Both the position numbers and the translations under genes were made by a program. This document shows positions 2,215-55,295 of a stretch of DNA of 64,000 bases, piece by piece. The DNA is from Bacteroidales bacterium (GTDB taxonomy: Bacteria; Bacteroidota; Bacteroidia; Bacteroidales; Bacteroidaceae). Under the pieces are notes generated by a model. The model ran no database searches. It was not told where the DNA came from and saw only the letters and a list, made by a program, of their open reading frames with translations. The stretch spans positions 1 to 64,000 of the forward strand of contig JAAYDO010000139.1 in NCBI GenBank assembly GCA_012729225.1, in the 5' to 3' direction. Position 1 is the first letter of the stretch. Each line of letters starts with the position of its first letter.

Positions 2215-3642
2215 ATGAAGAAAATCTTGATTTACATGGTAGCATTGTCTCTTGTTGCCTTTGCTGGCAGCTGTAAAAAAGGACAATCGGGGCATGCGGA
2301 TGATGTGGATTCGTTGGCATTGGATTCTACATCAGAAGACTTGTTGCCTATGTTTCTGTATTATCACAATCCTGACAATATGCAGATTATGTTTTGGACT
2401 TCTTTGGAAAAACCCTATGAACCAGACTCTGCCTGGACTTTGCAGGTAAAGACACGGAAATATGAGCAGGAATATACAAAGTTGCTTGTGAGTGATGGCA
2501 GGTGGGTGGATGTGAAGTTCAGGGATGAACAACTGAAGGATCCAGATGGAAAGGACCTGATGATATGGGCTCTCCATCGTGAAGAGGTGCCTTCGTGTGG
2601 TATTAGATATGCGTTTGAAAATATCTCAGACACGTCATACATGAAGGGTGAGTATGGCGCGCAGATGTTGGTTTTGGTTACAGATGATTATCTGAAGACT
2701 CATAAACAGTTGAAGGTGGAGAGTTTTGGGTGGGAGAATAGACGTAAGATGGATGCCTCTGTTGTTGAAAAGTTGGAAGAGCAATATCAGATGAAAGCAC
2801 AACGCTCCGTGATGACATGCAAGATGGAGGATGGAAGATATGCCTATGGTGTGGTACAGTTCAAACCTCAGAACAAGAAGGTTATGGCATTGCAGGTGCT
2901 GACTGATGGCACGGAAATCTATGTAAGTGAAGAAGAAAGGACTGTGGACGAGGACGAAAGTTCTATTTGGAATGTGGATGATGGGGGTGAGTATGTGCCA
3001 AGTAATATTTTGGCGGCTTTTGAAGGTGCTAAGGGGCTACATCTCTGCTATGTTCGTCATGCTGCGGAGAGCACAGAAACAGGATGGATTTCAGTAGGTA
3101 AAGACAAGAAACTGAACATTTTCCCCAATGCTAGTTACTATAATTATGTGGATGAACCATTGCCTTTTTATCATGTGGATATGGCAAGGCTTGTGAAGAT
3201 TTTGAGAAGACATGATTCCATGTTTGAGAATGTGAAGATGACGAAGTGGGCATATTGGGATATAGATAATGATGCGGAGGAGGAAGTCTGGATAGAATCG
3301 GAGGATGGGTATGGTGCTGTCTTTAGTCTTGTGGACGAAGAGCCTAAGTTGATAGTGGCTTATGACACAAGAATGACTCCAAAGAAATACATGAGTGGTG
3401 CTATCATGCTCAAGGGTTCTTGTGGAAGTGGCTGTGAGCGTGTGGAAATAGTCAAGATGGAAAAAAGCCGAAAGAAGCATGTCCTGACAGAAGTTCACTA
3501 CTATCAAGATGAAGAGAGAGAGGAAGCACAGTATGAAATGGATGGAAAGTCTGTGAGCAAAGAGACTGCGGAACAGTGGAAAGAAAAGGTGCTGGTAAAA
3601 GAAAATACTTATGGTCCTTATTTCAGGAGTTTCGGAGATTAA
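2215..3642 (+). CDS. Hypothetical lipoprotein
   Basis: Start at MKKILIYMVALSLVAFAGSCKK (lipobox) inside ORF 2080..3642; no family recognised. Confidence 0.75.
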   Translation: MKKILIYMVALSLVAFAGSCKKGQSGHADDVDSLALDSTSEDLLPMFLYYHNPDNMQIMFWTSLEKPYEPDSAWTLQVKTRKYEQEYTKLLVSDGRWVDVKFRDEQLKDPDGKDLMIWALHREEVPSCGIRYAFENISDTSYMKGEYGAQMLVLVTDDYLKTHKQLKVESFGWENRRKMDASVVEKLEEQYQMKAQRSVMTCKMEDGRYAYGVVQFKPQNKKVMALQVLTDGTEIYVSEEERTVDEDESSIWNVDDGGEYVPSNILAAFEGAKGLHLCYVRHAAESTETGWISVGKDKKLNIFPNASYYNYVDEPLPFYHVDMARLVKILRRHDSMFENVKMTKWAYWDIDNDAEEEVWIESEDGYGAVFSLVDEEPKLIVAYDTRMTPKKYMSGAIMLKGSCGSGCERVEIVKMEKSRKKHVLTEVHYYQDEEREEAQYEMDGKSVSKETAEQWKEKVLVKENTYGPYFRSFGD

Positions 3643-3956
3643 GGACTGCTTTACCTGTCCACTTAAAATAACGTGAGTCTGGCGAATTTGCAAGATAAGG
3701 CACTTTGTTTTGATTGTTAGCGCATCTTTTCAGTCACGCTCTCCCCTTCCTTTTTGGTCATAATTCATGGGTAAAGAGATTGAATTTACATGTTGTGGAA
3801 GAAGGGTGAAGTGATTCTGGCAGTTTTTGTCGCAGAGCAACTCTTCCAAGCATGTGAATGATGTTGCTTCCATTCCTTAGATTCTTTATATCTTCTTTAT
3901 AGACAATGGTTTATGGGTGGCTGAGAACTCAATGCAGATGAGGGGGAAACGCACGC

Positions 3957-4066
3957 ATGGTTCATGGGTCATCGCACCATTGTTCATTGGCACTTGAAGC
4001 ATTGTTCGTTAGCCATTGAACCATTGTTCGTTGGAGCATGAAGAATGGTTCAATCCAGTACTTTGT
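3957..4066 (+). repeat. 22-bp tandem repeat array, locus A (4 units plus degenerate fifth)
   Basis: ATGGTTCATGGGTCATCGCACC / ATTGTTCATTGGCACTTGAAGC / ATTGTTCGTTAGCCATTGAACC / ATTGTTCGTTGGAGCATGAAGA / ATGGTTCAATCCAGTACTTTGT; period exactly 22. Confidence 0.9.
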
Positions 4067-4178
4067 CAAATAGCAGGGAAAACCAACCATCTTATCTTTG
4101 CACACGCATGCTTTTCTTTTCCCTCCTCGATGGTAATAGGGGTGAGGTTTTATGATGTTATGGTACTCCCGTTAAAAT

Positions 4179-4216
4179 ACAAATGCGGCTTGGAAATCTT
4201 TCCAAACCGCATTTGT
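4179..4216. terminator. Hairpin terminator between convergent genes
   Basis: ACAAATGCGG-c-TTGGAAA tc TTTCCAA-a-CCGCATTTGT; 10+7 bp stem with one mismatch. Confidence 0.8.
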
Positions 4217-4312
4217 TATTGTATTGTGATTGATGTTGTTTTATTCAGTTCTTGATTTGTTATCATTGTGACACCAATCAGAACCTACTCCGTTTCCCTC
4301 TTTTTATAATGG

Positions 4313-5671
4313 TTAGAAACTTGAGTAGATGACCTCGAGTTTGATAGGATTGTTCTTGCCTCCCACCAGACGGGCGCTGTTCATGCCAAAATCATGGTTG
4401 AGTTTGACAATGCCACCGCTTGAGTCCTTGGTGGTTTCTACAGGAATGATGAGCACCTTGTTCCAATTTGCTGTTGCTTTGCCTGCTTTCTTCTCTTTTG
4501 CCATTCCGGTTATGAGGCGAGCAATGTTGTTGAATGTGTAGGTGTTGGTACTGCTATTGAATGAAGCAAGATAAGACTCTCTGCCGTCTTGTATTTGATA
4601 GTTCTCGAAGAATCCATTGAGATAGTCGTCAAGACGAACGAGCAGTACTGTTTGAGGAATATTGAGTTTGAAGTTGCTTTCAACTTCATCATTATAGCGT
4701 GTGAGCGTAAGTTTTGCAGAGTTGATGGTGTCTTCCACATGAATCTGGTCTGCTGGGATGGTTGCCATAGTGAAGATCCCTGCCGGACTCTTCAGGTATG
4801 TGCAACTCTCGTCATTGACAAGTTGGTCAAGGTTGGTATTCTCGAAGTGTGTGGCTTCGACCACGGCATCGGTGGCAGCAAAGGTGCACATGCCGATGGT
4901 GTCTTTTGCTAACGTGCCATCGTAATATCTGAAGAAGAGATTCATTTGCACGAGGTCGATGTAAGCCATCGCTCCATCGCCATATTCAAGCTTGAAGTAC
5001 AGTCCCTTGCTGCAAGGATTCTCGCTCTTGAGCCATGCGGATGTGTTGGCAAAGTGTTCAGGGTGCTGACGATAATCACGAAGTATGCTTGTGCCAAGAT
5101 CAACAGGCAGGCTTATACGAATATTGTTGGAATAGTCTGTCTTCCATCGGTCTGCATCCGAGATGGTTCGGTCGCTGATGGTGAACCACTTGGTTGCTAT
5201 GGGTTGGGCTGTTGCATCAATGTACTCTTCTGGATTGATGTTCGTGTAGTAGTCTGCATTGGGATCGAGTGATTTGTTGAGTTCATACACGCTGAGTTTG
5301 AATGACTGGAGTGAGTCACCAACAAAGTTGTCGATAAAGAGACGTACGTCAAGGCGTGTGCAGGCATCATCGTTGCGGATGATTTCAGGCAGGTTGAATC
5401 CTTCTTCACAGTGAAACTGTACCATGAAGTCACTTGCTATGGTTGTGTTGGTCTCAGGGTCTGTGAAACGACCAAAGTATGATTTGTTGGTGCGTGCCAG
5501 CACTGCGTCGCCCACGGCATAGGACTCTGTGGTCACATCGTAGGTTTTGAAGTTTTTGGAGACAATATCAGTGGAAGGCATCATGTCAATGCCTAATGTT
5601 GCCGTGTTGTCATCGCACGAAGCAAGCATGAAGATGCCCAATCCGTATGCTAATAGATGTCTGAGGTTCAT
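4313..5671 (-). CDS. DUF4270 domain-containing lipoprotein
   Basis: MNLRHLLAYGLGIFMLASCDDNTATLGIDMMPSTD...; lipobox, DUF4270-like; start moved from 5710 to 5671. Confidence 0.75.
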   Translation of the reverse strand: MNLRHLLAYGLGIFMLASCDDNTATLGIDMMPSTDIVSKNFKTYDVTTESYAVGDAVLARTNKSYFGRFTDPETNTTIASDFMVQFHCEEGFNLPEIIRNDDACTRLDVRLFIDNFVGDSLQSFKLSVYELNKSLDPNADYYTNINPEEYIDATAQPIATKWFTISDRTISDADRWKTDYSNNIRISLPVDLGTSILRDYRQHPEHFANTSAWLKSENPCSKGLYFKLEYGDGAMAYIDLVQMNLFFRYYDGTLAKDTIGMCTFAATDAVVEATHFENTNLDQLVNDESCTYLKSPAGIFTMATIPADQIHVEDTINSAKLTLTRYNDEVESNFKLNIPQTVLLVRLDDYLNGFFENYQIQDGRESYLASFNSSTNTYTFNNIARLITGMAKEKKAGKATANWNKVLIIPVETTKDSSGGIVKLNHDFGMNSARLVGGKNNPIKLEVIYSSF

Positions 5672-19487: not shown

Positions 19488-19902
19488 AGGAAAAGAAAAA
19501 AAAATGGTTTTTAACGTGCGTTCGGTGAATACAGACACGATAAAAAGAGTTTTTTCATTTTCTGATGGAGAAGAAGAGGGGCAGGCTGTGACTCATGTCA
19601 TCCTCCTCGTGTAGTAAGTGTTTTTTTCTTCACGTAGAAAACATCTCGCTTCGGAATAGGAGGTGTCAAAATAGGAGAGGTTATCTCCATTCGGAGATTG
19701 TATATCAGTATGATGGTTTTTGAGGTTCCTTGTCTATTGTGATTGTTGTTTCATCATTAGGGTAGATATTGTTGCGAGGAAACTCTTTCAGGAAGGTTGA
19801 TGAAATGATTCTGGAAGGATGAAGATTGATTTATATCTACTTGATATATAAAGGATTATTTTCGTTCTTGGAACGGAATGCTTGTGAGAGAAAAAAGGAA
19901 TA

Positions 19903-20034
19903 CTTGTTCGTCGGTCATTGAAGCATTGTTCGTTGGTCATTGAAGCATTGTTCATTTGCCATTGAAATATTGTTCGTTTGCCGTTGAAACATTGTTCGTT
20001 TGCCGTTGAGGTACACTTCGGTCATTCAATGCAC
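19903..20034 (+). repeat. 22-bp tandem repeat array, locus B (5 units plus degenerate tail)
   Basis: CTTGTTCGTCGGTCATTGAAGC / ATTGTTCGTTGGTCATTGAAGC / ATTGTTCATTTGCCATTGAAAT / ATTGTTCGTTTGCCGTTGAAAC / ATTGTTCGTTTGCCGTTGAGGT. Confidence 0.92.
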
Positions 20035-20114
20035 AAAATTTCAGTAGAAATCCTGTGGTTTTGCCTTTGTCCGCACAGATCGTATTTAATCACCCCACAG
20101 GAGGGATGGCAGGC

Positions 20115-36494: not shown

Positions 36495-36582
36495 CTTCAA
36501 GAAGTTGTTTTCGCCACTTCAAGAAATCATTTTCGCGGTTTCAAGAGGTTGTTTTCATGCTTTTCGCAAATCACGCAATTCA
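36495..36582 (+). repeat. 22-bp tandem repeat array, locus E (diverged variant, 3 clear units)
   Basis: CTTCAAGAAGTTGTTTTCGCCA / CTTCAAGAAATCATTTTCGCGG / TTTCAAGAGGTTGTTTTCATGC / degenerate TTTTCGCAAATCACGCAATTCA. Confidence 0.85.
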
Positions 36583-36618
36583 TTACTCATGCTTTTTACC
36601 TGCCCCTGTCTTCTGTGA

Positions 36619-36651
36619 GCCTTCGATATGCCTTCGATAAGCCTTCGATAC
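36619..36651 (+). repeat. 11-bp tandem repeat, 3 units
   Basis: GCCTTCGATAT / GCCTTCGATAA / GCCTTCGATAC; flanks also match the copy at 54206. Confidence 0.88.
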
Positions 36652-36788
36652 GAGTCTAACATAATTCCTTCACTTTCCTCCTTTCTTTTTTCATCCTTTT
36701 TAGGCTTTCAGCATGTGTCTTTCCCGTATAGTGTCATCAAACTTGCAGAGAGGAATCGCTTGTTGAACTCGTATTGTATGTGATGTTT

Positions 36789-40624: not shown

Positions 40625-40696
40625 TTGACAGATCTTCGGCTTTTTGAGGAGGCCGAAGGACAGGACGAACTAACAATAAATGATGAATTTGTAAAG

Positions 40697-41641
40697 ATGG
40701 ATGCTAAGATTTATGCTGAAAGGTGTTTGCGTGATGAGGCTCAGACCCTGCTTGACTTAATTCCACAATTAGATAACCAGTTTGAACAGGTCGTGGATCT
40801 TATCCATCGATGCACAGGTCATGTGGTAGTGACAGGTGTGGGGAAGTCTGGTCATGTGGGTGCTAAGATAGCGGCCACATTGTCCTCTACGGGCACTCCT
40901 GCCATCTATCTGAACACGTTGGATGCGCTTCATGGAGACCTCGGCATGATCATGAATGACGATGTTTTGTTTATGATCAGCAACTCGGGTAACACCGATG
41001 AATTGCTTCGTATCACGGCTTCGCTTGAAGAACGCCATATCCCTATTGTCTCGATGACGGGTGATGCTCACTCGCTTTTGGCTCAGCACTCTACTTATCA
41101 TATTCTGTGCAGTGTGGAGAAAGAGGCTTGTCCGCTCAACTTGGCACCCACATCCAGCACCACTGCTGCTATGGCAATGGGTGATGCGCTGGCATGTGCA
41201 CTGATGGAGGTGAGGAGATTCCGTGCTAAAGACTTCGCACAGTTTCATCCAGGGGGCACATTGGGTAGGAAGTTGCTGGTGAGAGTGAAGGATGTGATGT
41301 ACACGGACAATTTTCCTATCATCCCTCCACACGTGCGTCTCTCGGAAGCCATCATGGCTATCAGTGCAGGCAAGTTGGGACTTGGCGTGGTGATGGAAGA
41401 TGAAAAGATTTTAGGTATCATTACCGATGGCGACATTCGTCGTGCTGTGGAAGGTGCGCGCGATAATTTCATCAATCTCACAGTGTGCGAGGCGATGACC
41501 CGCAGTCCTAAGACCATCTCGCCTGATGCTAAACTGACGACCATTCAGCAGATGTTCAGAAATCATAAGATTCACTCTCTTCTGGTGACAGACCATGGGA
41601 AGTTGGTCGGTATCGTGGATTACTTTGCGATTATGAATTAG
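40697..41641 (+). CDS. kdsD: D-arabinose-5-phosphate isomerase (KpsF/GutQ family)
   Basis: SIS domain (VVVTGVGKSGHVGAKIAATLSSTGTPAIYLN) plus CBS pair; start set at MDAKIYAERCL. Confidence 0.94.
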   Translation: MDAKIYAERCLRDEAQTLLDLIPQLDNQFEQVVDLIHRCTGHVVVTGVGKSGHVGAKIAATLSSTGTPAIYLNTLDALHGDLGMIMNDDVLFMISNSGNTDELLRITASLEERHIPIVSMTGDAHSLLAQHSTYHILCSVEKEACPLNLAPTSSTTAAMAMGDALACALMEVRRFRAKDFAQFHPGGTLGRKLLVRVKDVMYTDNFPIIPPHVRLSEAIMAISAGKLGLGVVMEDEKILGIITDGDIRRAVEGARDNFINLTVCEAMTRSPKTISPDAKLTTIQQMFRNHKIHSLLVTDHGKLVGIVDYFAIMN

Positions 41642-41701: not shown

Positions 41702-41732
41702 ATTAGCGTGAGTCCATCCAACTCACGCTAAT
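41702..41732. terminator. Hairpin terminator downstream of kdsD
   Basis: 12-bp perfect stem ATTAGCGTGAGT - ccatcca - ACTCACGCTAAT followed by TTT. Confidence 0.85.
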
Positions 41733-42035
41733 TTTATGTTGAACCACTCCCTATTACTACTTTCTTGATGTGTGTGCATCTTCTTCTCCATTCCTTCTTT
41801 TTTAATTTCCTTACCGAAATTTATGGAAGATTCGTATAAAATTCGTTGGTGATTCGTGCTGTTTTCACTTGTTGTGGAATAATGGTTAAGCGAGTTGGAC
41901 AAGTTTTGATGCAGGATGGCTTACACAAGAACGTGAGTGATATTTCCATGACTTCTTTTATTGCTCTTATCTTGTTTATATACAATGAATTATAGATACT
42001 TTTTGCTTAAATGCTTGTGGCGATGAAAATGCACC

Positions 42036-42145
42036 ATTGTTCATGGACTATCGCACCATTGTCCGTTGGCACTTGAAATATTGTTCGTTGGTGCTCGAAG
42101 CATTGTTCGTTGGCTGATGAAGTATGCTTCGGTCATGAGATGTGT
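42036..42145 (+). repeat. 22-bp tandem repeat array, locus C (4 units plus degenerate fifth)
   Basis: ATTGTTCATGGACTATCGCACC / ATTGTCCGTTGGCACTTGAAAT / ATTGTTCGTTGGTGCTCGAAGC / ATTGTTCGTTGGCTGATGAAGT / ATGCTTCGGTCATGAGATGTGT. Confidence 0.9.
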
Positions 42146-42304
42146 ATGATTGCATGGAATATCCTACTGTTTTCACCGCTTCTTTCTCACTTCTTTTGTG
42201 GCCACCCCAACTTTTTCTGAAAGAGGAAGAGGAGTGGGGTTTTCATATATGTCATTCACCAGAAGGAATCAACGCTACAGGTATCAGACTATCACAAAAA
42301 GAAA

Positions 42305-53070: not shown

Positions 53071-54153
53071 ATGTCATTAATCAAATGTCCTGAATGCGGT
53101 AGAGAGGTGAGTGATTTAGCCGCATCCTGTCCTCACTGTGGATGTCCTATCAATGAGCATGTGGCTCGTCTTGTGGCAGATAGGACTTCAGGCGAAAAGA
53201 AGAATCAAAACTCACCTGCTCCCAAGAAACAGACAAGAGCAACCGCTACAATAGTTGTCATGTCTCTGGTCATCTTATCACTTGCAGGCGCAGCTGTTTG
53301 GTTTCTCTTCTTTGGTAGAGGTTCTGATATGGATGAGCGTGCGGCTTACGATCGGATTATGCGTTTTGAAAAAGAACGTCAGTTTGATTCACTGGATGTG
53401 GCTCTCAACGAATATATCGACACCTACAATTCTGATGCTTTCCACTATTCGCAGATCAAGGAGTTGAGTGACCGTTTCTCTACCGAACGCTCTGATTGGG
53501 AGGCTGTCAAAGGTGTCATGTCATTGCAGTCAGTGCGTCGTTTTCTGGATATGCACCCAGATGGGTTCTTCCACAAAAATGCTGATGAGAAGTTGGACTC
53601 TCTCTCCTTTGTTGAGGCGGAGAATGAAGACACCAAAGAGGCTTATGACCGCTATCTCAGCGAGTTTAACAACGGCAGGTTTGCCGAAGAGGCTCACAAG
53701 AAAATATCTGACCTCGACAAGGAAGAACTCACGATAGAGGAACAGTTGTCTGTCAAGAAGGTGCTTTCAACTCATTTTGATGCTTTGGCAGACAATGACA
53801 AGACCTCCATTGCTTCCACTCTTGCTTCCCGAATCAACTCCTATATTGGTAAGGCAAATCCTGAGATGGAAGATATTTATGCCTATATGAGCGGTATGCA
53901 TTCATCCTCCCGCCAGATTGTCTTCAATGTTAAGACAGGTAATGTCACAAAGGTGAAGGTGGGTGACAGGTCTGTTTTCAATGCTCAGTTCGTTCTTGAA
54001 GAAGAGGCGATGGCTGCGGGTCGTCATAATGGTCTTGACACAGAGTATGGCAATGCTGAAGAGAAATCATCTTCGGGCAATGTCAAACGCTTCATCGGTA
54101 CTGCTGTTCTCAACGAAAACATGAAGATCACTTCATTGGTGTTGAGGCAGTAA
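53071..54153 (+). CDS. Zinc-ribbon domain-containing membrane protein
   Basis: MSLIKCPECGREVSDLAASCPHCGCPINEH, then one TM helix (IVVMSLVILSLAGAAVWFLFF). Confidence 0.8.
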   Translation: MSLIKCPECGREVSDLAASCPHCGCPINEHVARLVADRTSGEKKNQNSPAPKKQTRATATIVVMSLVILSLAGAAVWFLFFGRGSDMDERAAYDRIMRFEKERQFDSLDVALNEYIDTYNSDAFHYSQIKELSDRFSTERSDWEAVKGVMSLQSVRRFLDMHPDGFFHKNADEKLDSLSFVEAENEDTKEAYDRYLSEFNNGRFAEEAHKKISDLDKEELTIEEQLSVKKVLSTHFDALADNDKTSIASTLASRINSYIGKANPEMEDIYAYMSGMHSSSRQIVFNVKTGNVTKVKVGDRSVFNAQFVLEEEAMAAGRHNGLDTEYGNAEEKSSSGNVKRFIGTAVLNENMKITSLVLRQ

Positions 54154-54205
54154 TATTTCTCTCAGGAAGGAGTGTGTGGATAACACTCTCCCCATGCTTC
54201 TGCGA

Positions 54206-54238
54206 GCCTTCGATATACCTTCGATAAGGCTTCGATAG
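54206..54238 (+). repeat. 11-bp tandem repeat, 3 units (second copy)
   Basis: GCCTTCGATAT / ACCTTCGATAA / GGCTTCGATAG; flanks TCTGCGAG...GGAGT...ATAATT align with 36611-36664. Confidence 0.88.
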
Positions 54239-54357
54239 GAGTATGGGATAATTAGCGTGAGTTCAACAACGATTTCACGCTCTGTTTCTATGGTTAAAGA
54301 GGCTGAATAAAAGCAAGTGCTTGAGAGGATGAGATGGTGGGATTTCCCTTCCATTTG

Positions 54358-54489
54358 CCCCCTCACGTGATTGAAGCATTCTTCATGCCTCAACGAACAA
54401 TTGTTCAATGGCTAACGAACAATTATTCAAGTGCCGATGAACAATGCTTCAAGTGCCAATGAATAATTGTTCGATGACCCATGAACCAT
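54358..54489 (-). repeat. 22-bp tandem repeat array, locus D (5 units plus degenerate sixth; minus orientation)
   Basis: Minus strand: ATGGTTCATGGGTCATCGAACA / ATTATTCATTGGCACTTGAAGC / ATTGTTCATCGGCACTTGAATA / ATTGTTCGTTAGCCATTGAACA / ATTGTTCGTTGAGGCATGAAGA / ATGCTTCAATCACGTGAGGGGG. Confidence 0.92.
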
Positions 54490-54704
54490 GCGTGCGTTTT
54501 TGTCCCTATAAGCATGAAGTTCTTGAGTGTCTATAAATCGTTGTGTATAGACAGGATATAAAGATCCCTTCGGTCTATGCTGACATCATTCGCTTTCTTG
54601 GGTGGGTGGTCCTGCGACAAACTCTGAGTTTGGCGTACTCATGTGGATTGAAGTCCCAAACTTAGGCAGTTCCTCATGACCGCCTTGGGGATGAGAGAGT
54701 GGCT

Positions 54705-55295
54705 TTATACACCTTCATCACTGAAGTCCTTGCTCATTTCATTGCTGAGTGGCCCTGTCTCCAGATCTTGTGCTTTCTGGAAGGAATGAGAACCATCAGG
54801 GTTTACCTTCAATTCAAGCGGATAAGCCATTCCATCTGAGGTCTCGTCAGGATCACCTACTGTCACAATGAAATAAAGGGCAGAACGGTCTTTGTCGCGC
54901 TTGATGTAGTTGTAGTTCACACCTATCATGGTGGATGTCTTCAGGAAGTCGCTTGGTACAATATTGCTGAAGTTGCTTTTGTAGAACGTTTTGCTAAAGA
55001 CCTTTGTGCTGTCTCGCCTGATGTCAATCCTTACTCTACTCTCATGGTATTCAAGCCCTTGGGAGTTGATGAGCACGGGCATGGTATCAACATGCTCAAA
55101 CTTGCAAGTATATCGATACAGTTTGCCGTTGATGTGAATGGTGTCATCAATCGTGTAGTCGCACAGTGATGTGACACCTGTTTGAGAATCAGTTTCTTCC
55201 ACTACATGTGGCGTTGTCATCTCTTTTTTTTCTTCTTTGCATGATGTTGCCGCCAAGGTAAGTAGCGTGATGAACGCTATGCTGAATAATTTCAT
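54705..55295 (-). CDS. DUF4738-like lipoprotein
   Basis: MKLFSIAFITLLTLAATSCKEEKKEM lipobox; start set downstream of 55346. Confidence 0.65.
   Translation of the reverse strand: MKLFSIAFITLLTLAATSCKEEKKEMTTPHVVEETDSQTGVTSLCDYTIDDTIHINGKLYRYTCKFEHVDTMPVLINSQGLEYHESRVRIDIRRDSTKVFSKTFYKSNFSNIVPSDFLKTSTMIGVNYNYIKRDKDRSALYFIVTVGDPDETSDGMAYPLELKVNPDGSHSFQKAQDLETGPLSNEMSKDFSDEGV

Follow-up and report, generated by a model that had tools for sequence, protein, structure and literature searches.

The stretch of DNA analysed here (the window) comprises the first 64,000 nucleotides of one contig from a Bacteroidales bacterium. It holds four copies, A to D, of a single non-autonomous transposable element, which is about 500 bp long, has terminal inverted repeats of some 18-20 bp and is flanked by a 5-bp target duplication (Table 1). 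Two cores of 11-bp repeats belonging to another intergenic family also lie in the window, one of them directly against D. Copy A is complete and contains no open reading frame of 100 or more amino acids (3670-4173). Its terminal inverted repeats are degenerate (AACGTGAGT...).

Table 1. Repeat elements and their parts in the window
Feature	Position	Strand	Basis
Target-site duplication AAAAT, left of A	3665..3669	+	Read directly; exact match to 4174-4178; boundaries from the inverted repeats
Element A, complete 504-bp copy, assigned with high confidence to a MITE	3670..4173	+	Inverted repeats 16/20 and 13/20 at the family's fixed distances; exact target-site duplication; HMM match 3751-4156
A, 5′ terminal inverted repeat AACGTGAGTCTGGCGAATTT	3670..3689	+	End scoring
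A, conserved head and 22-bp repeat array	3950..4042	+	TRF; head and unit pattern matches; array and head identity across copies
A, 3′ terminal inverted repeat GATGTTATGGTACTCCCGTT, degenerate	4154..4173	+	End scoring
Target-site duplication AAAAT, right of A	4174..4178	+	Read directly
Family copy B, ends decayed, 22-bp array 19904-20009	19756..20104	+	HMM score 163; TRF
Second sister core, 11-bp repeats	36600..36668	-	TRF 36618-36650; pattern match C42 36648 (-)
Family copy C, ends decayed	41838..42230	+	HMM score 254; BLASTN to A, E 1e-22
Sister core, 11-bp TATCGAAGG repeats, abutting the 3′ end of D	54186..54253	-	Direct reading; pattern match C42 54235 (-)
Element D, shortened copy of about 392 bp, 5′ (left) part lost	54254..54645	-	BLASTN to A, E 2e-39; HMM 54275-54627
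D, 3′ inverted repeat GAACTCACGCT	ends at 54254	-	End search
D, 22-bp array	54391-54472	-	Within element D
D, 5′ inverted repeat CACATGAGTACGCCAAACTC	54645-54626	-	14/20, direct reading

A preliminary description of the window had proposed that A and D are homologous well beyond their 22-bp units, and this proved correct. When 3401-4600 was compared by BLASTN with reverse-complemented 53901-55000, 225 of 319 bp were identical (71%, E 2e-39), a similarity that is not limited to the units. The alignment runs from TTTGTCGCAG (3826) to TGCTTTTCTT. B and C, too, emerge as relatives from the BLASTN search. As the description had it, a 27-base head, AACGCACGCATGGTTCATGGGTCATCG, is identical in the two copies, the tail aligns without gaps, and the array is longer in D by exactly one 22-bp unit. 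The size of 250-300 bp given for the element has to be revised: homology passes both of the proposed ends, and A, whose ends and target duplications the description had rightly suggested looking for, measures 504 bp, with AAAAT on both sides. Nor do the data uphold the proposal of a single segmental duplication in inverted orientation. It would suit a pair of copies some 50 kb from each other and on opposite strands, but A and D are just two of about 170 copies dispersed on both strands, which refutes it and leaves it with practically no credence.

The abundance of the family is seen in several searches. Across the whole genome, 311 bp of A used as a query match 42 times and the pattern of the 22-bp unit 182 times, against none for the reversed control pattern; the A-D match is thus far above chance. 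A profile search finds 87 copies in 1.41 Mb of sampled contigs, which extrapolates to about 178 per genome, from a sample that is somewhat biased, as it consists partly of contigs chosen for their hits and may count a few contig-end copies twice. The draft genome is fragmented into 213 contigs, about half of whose bases were sampled, and the genes are those of a simple caller. One family copy appears to be shared between the end of contig C196 and the start of C129, which are probably neighbours.

The ends of the element were found from the most similar pairs of copies, in which homology begins at AACGTGAGTT. The motif lies 79-84 bases before the start of the profile, and an inverted copy of it lies at the profile end. 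When 20 bases at each end were scored (95th percentile of the null, 12), at least 12/20 was reached by the 5′ repeat of 23 copies out of 81 and by the 3′ repeat of 43 out of 82. The best reach 19/20 and 17/20, respectively, at fixed distances. Both ends score at least 12/20 in 13 copies, and among these the identity of the two flanks peaks at 5 bp (0.46 vs. 0.28). The target duplications are AAAAT in A, AAGAC in a second copy and ATGTTT in a third; most other copies have none, presumably because they are too old.

The same ends occur on degenerate IS982 remnants in this genome, one in C183 (AACGTGAGTTCGATGAATTAT...GAATTCGTCTTACTCATGTT) and another in C131 (...GTCGAACTCACATT), which were identified as IS982 by matches to NF033520 (1.7e-12) and PF13612. 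Since the family ends match IS982-family elements of the same genome, the copies are IS982-type MITEs. The inverted repeats, target duplication, shortness, lack of a transposase gene and high copy number are all those of a MITE, and we regard this identity as very probable. An intact-looking element with ends AACGTGAGTTCGACGTAAG stops many contigs. We call it IS982-type from our own reading of its sequence; its short end fragments, searched alone, gave no family match. The ends of A are closer to those of the degenerate remnants than to those of this element. Nine contig ends (L201 to L207, L209 and L210) stop about 100-240 bp inside it, and at C28 and C154 its ends abut copies of the family as if it had inserted into them. 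Among the sampled copies of the family, a genome search with PF13612 matches just one, C34 29974. The left half of this copy (L213 1351-1656, about 30.2 kb in C34) is missing, and what remains is joined to an antisense fragment of an IS982 transposase; insertion or recombination probably caused the fusion.

Two known elements invite comparison. MITECca01 of Cardinium, also in the Bacteroidota, is an IS982-derived, lineage-specific MITE of 169 copies (3.5% of the chromosome), similar in number to the present family and likewise mostly intergenic; it differs in being about 240 bp long and in having an intact parental IS, and the accessible part of the report mentions no tandem array, regular spacing or array conservation (PMC9769881). 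BrickBuilt of Porphyromonas gingivalis resembles the present family in its leader, minisatellite, tail, terminal inverted repeats, target duplication (of 4 nt) and intergenic location, and in being essentially confined to its own lineage; in contrast, it has about 19 copies, inverted repeats of the IS5-family type and an unrelated 23-nt unit, AGAYCATARTATCCTCTCRTRTG, and the accessible text describes neither a spacing rule nor array retention (PMC4596501). As far as these accounts go, each covers one half of the features seen here. The family is not BrickBuilt, its unit being CATTGTTCRTTGGYCATYGAAC rather than AGAYCATARTATCCTCTCRTRTG and its ends AACGTGAGTT rather than IS5-type. The BIME-2 elements of E. 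coli are likewise intergenic repeats with palindromic units (PMC6379681); they are, however, REP-based and unrelated in sequence to this IS982-type MITE, whose unit is only an imperfect palindrome. Assignment to BIME/REP was rejected because such imperfect palindromes lie here inside an element with inverted repeats and not in REP mosaic arrays. What goes beyond an ordinary MITE is an array conserved amid decaying flanks and a spacing of at least 6.2 kb.

The family is confined to this genome among those searched. In a scan of 393 genomes of the order it alone exceeds single chance hits of the unit, the other 392 giving zero or one chance match each. No match to the family was found by blastn among 44 congeners, or when 470 kb of DNA from congeners was searched with a profile. 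The nearest congener, judged by one protein, shows 76% amino-acid identity. The element is absent from nine congener loci around the gene of that protein and from nine around the gene adjoining D. Convergent gaps average about 400 bp here vs. about 180 bp in two congeners. One GTDB match and one viral match, considered as relatives, were rejected as chance matches inside coding DNA.

The family is old: its flanks and inverted repeats have decayed and its inner array has not. Among 39 full-length copies, pairwise identity is 82% in the array and head, 55% in the left flank and 56% in the right. The contrast is not an artefact of searching with the array, because profiles of the flanks alone match 62 and 69 places and the array is present at every one; no array-less relics were among these matches. 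The 22-bp register is held in 236 of 238 unit pairs.

Uniformity of the array could also be kept by gene conversion between loci instead of selection, and short repeats common to about 170 dispersed loci could indeed recombine. Yet unit types that are specific to their position persist, units within a locus being no more alike (0.678) than units at different positions across loci (0.685), and identity falls sharply at the edge of the array. We think it improbable that conversion is the cause. Homogenisation within single arrays was rejected on the same comparison; units at the same position in different loci are 77-81% identical vs. 68% for different units of one locus, so there is no local homogenisation. 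That selection maintains the array is, in our judgement, an even chance or slightly better.

The copies might instead be a structured RNA gene or a family of bidirectional terminators. Copies do lie at gene ends, and the consensus contains a stem, AAATGGCAGG/CCTGCCATTT. But RNAalifold finds no consensus structure in 39 copies on either strand, the stem decays without compensation (0.707 paired vs. 0.712 in shuffles), and Rfam has no match, all of which makes this reading highly implausible.

Nearly all copies are intergenic, and many occupy convergent gaps. None of the 87 sampled copies lies inside a called gene: 38 are in convergent gaps, 28 in tandem gaps, three in divergent gaps and 18 at contig ends. 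The sampled half of the genome has 98 convergent gaps, and a copy sits in 38 of them. Neighbouring copies keep apart. The smallest of 39 spacings is 6.2 kb, where 13-16 below 6 kb were expected among the first 27-39, and none of 2000 permutations reproduced the spacing, whether the null was uniform, per-contig or by gap class. A further 16 spacings, from pattern coordinates alone, have a minimum of 6.96 kb, giving 55 in total with none below 6 kb. A null restricted to convergent gaps gives a weaker result (for spacings below 8 kb, P is about 0.005; for those below 6 kb, 0.054). One possible inverted unit beside an array (C78 6603) was left out of these counts. Loss by recombination between nearby direct repeats was rejected as the cause of the spacing, since neighbours on opposite strands are also at least 8.0 kb apart. 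The orientation of copies is weakly biased with respect to replication (it follows GC skew in 53 of 82, p about 0.02); this bias is not used in the argument.

The second intergenic family, with 11-bp TCTCGAAGGCA units, was likewise not found among the 44 congeners. Its core is 86% identical between copies vs. 49% and 44% for its flanks. The end motif is common to the two families in at least one clear copy (C10 377-836), and from such sequence similarity the sister family appears to share its ends with the 22-bp family. The two also avoid each other: distances of 0.6-4.5 kb between them number 5, against 15.6 expected (0 of 2000 permutations). The avoidance is strong but not absolute, as some distances of 1.9-2.5 kb exist once copies known from coordinates only are added. 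Other modules occur nearby. A different 22-bp tandem array (TGGCGAAAACAACTTCTTGAAG, minus strand) adjoins an 11-bp-repeat core at 36495-36556 of the window. Beside several 11-bp cores (e.g., C46 7727 and C10 803) lies a third intergenic module, with TGTCTCAATTGTCTCAATC at one boundary and the inverse sequence at the other. At 41704-41730, downstream of the gene at 40625-41641, a short near-perfect inverted repeat, TTAGCGTGAGTCCATCCAACTCACGCTAA, looks like two element ends back to back.

The main rival to selection accounts for these features by insertion itself. The copies would be ordinary MITEs, neutral once inserted, with the spacing set by a transposition machinery that rejects sites close to a resident copy (target immunity) and the array kept because transposition required it. 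Both sister families seem to share an inverted repeat and to keep their distance from each other, as one machinery would bring about, and array-less relics are absent between copies, a lack that is explained equally well by exclusion at insertion and by selection. Conservation for the sake of transposition, however, predicts that the inverted repeats should be the best-kept parts; yet the 5′ repeat is recognisable in just 23 of the 81 copies scored, while the arrays are intact. For IS982, target immunity is to our knowledge not an established property, and a literature search turned up no account of it. We consider this explanation rather unlikely.

We favour, with somewhat better than even confidence, the combined view that the copies are IS982-type MITEs whose arrays were exapted as putative protein-binding platforms. 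Judging from the sequences, an IS982 transposase would have spread the MITEs in this lineage; with less certainty, selection may then have kept the arrays. A period of 22 bp, close to two turns of the helix, could let the units form a platform for a putative DNA-binding protein. Such a platform would occur once in roughly 12 kb, with a preference for convergent gaps, the places at which positive supercoils meet; this may point to a nucleoid or topoisomerase role. A comparable role in genome organisation has been proposed for E. coli BIMEs through gyrase binding (PMC6379681). Against exaptation, the regular spacing could arise at insertion, and no positive evidence of selection on copy position was found.

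In a bolder form of exaptation, both sister MITE families would have been domesticated in one species. Intergenic arrays of 22-bp and 11-bp phased units, one every 8-12 kb or so, would make up a lattice of putative protein-binding sites that anchor the chromosome topologically or load topoisomerase; we offer this tentatively, as a doubtful proposal. Diffusible supercoils are described, in the accessible part of one report, as moving in 10-kb domains (PMC3420936). The spacing of the array lattice is near this reported size of bacterial supercoil domains, a match of scale that is not evidence of function.

In closing, MITEs are usually treated as passive debris. A MITE family whose inner array outlasts its decaying ends, and whose copies stay at least 6 kb from one another, would either have been exapted genome-wide into the architecture of the chromosome or be evidence of an unreported spacing rule in IS982 transposition.
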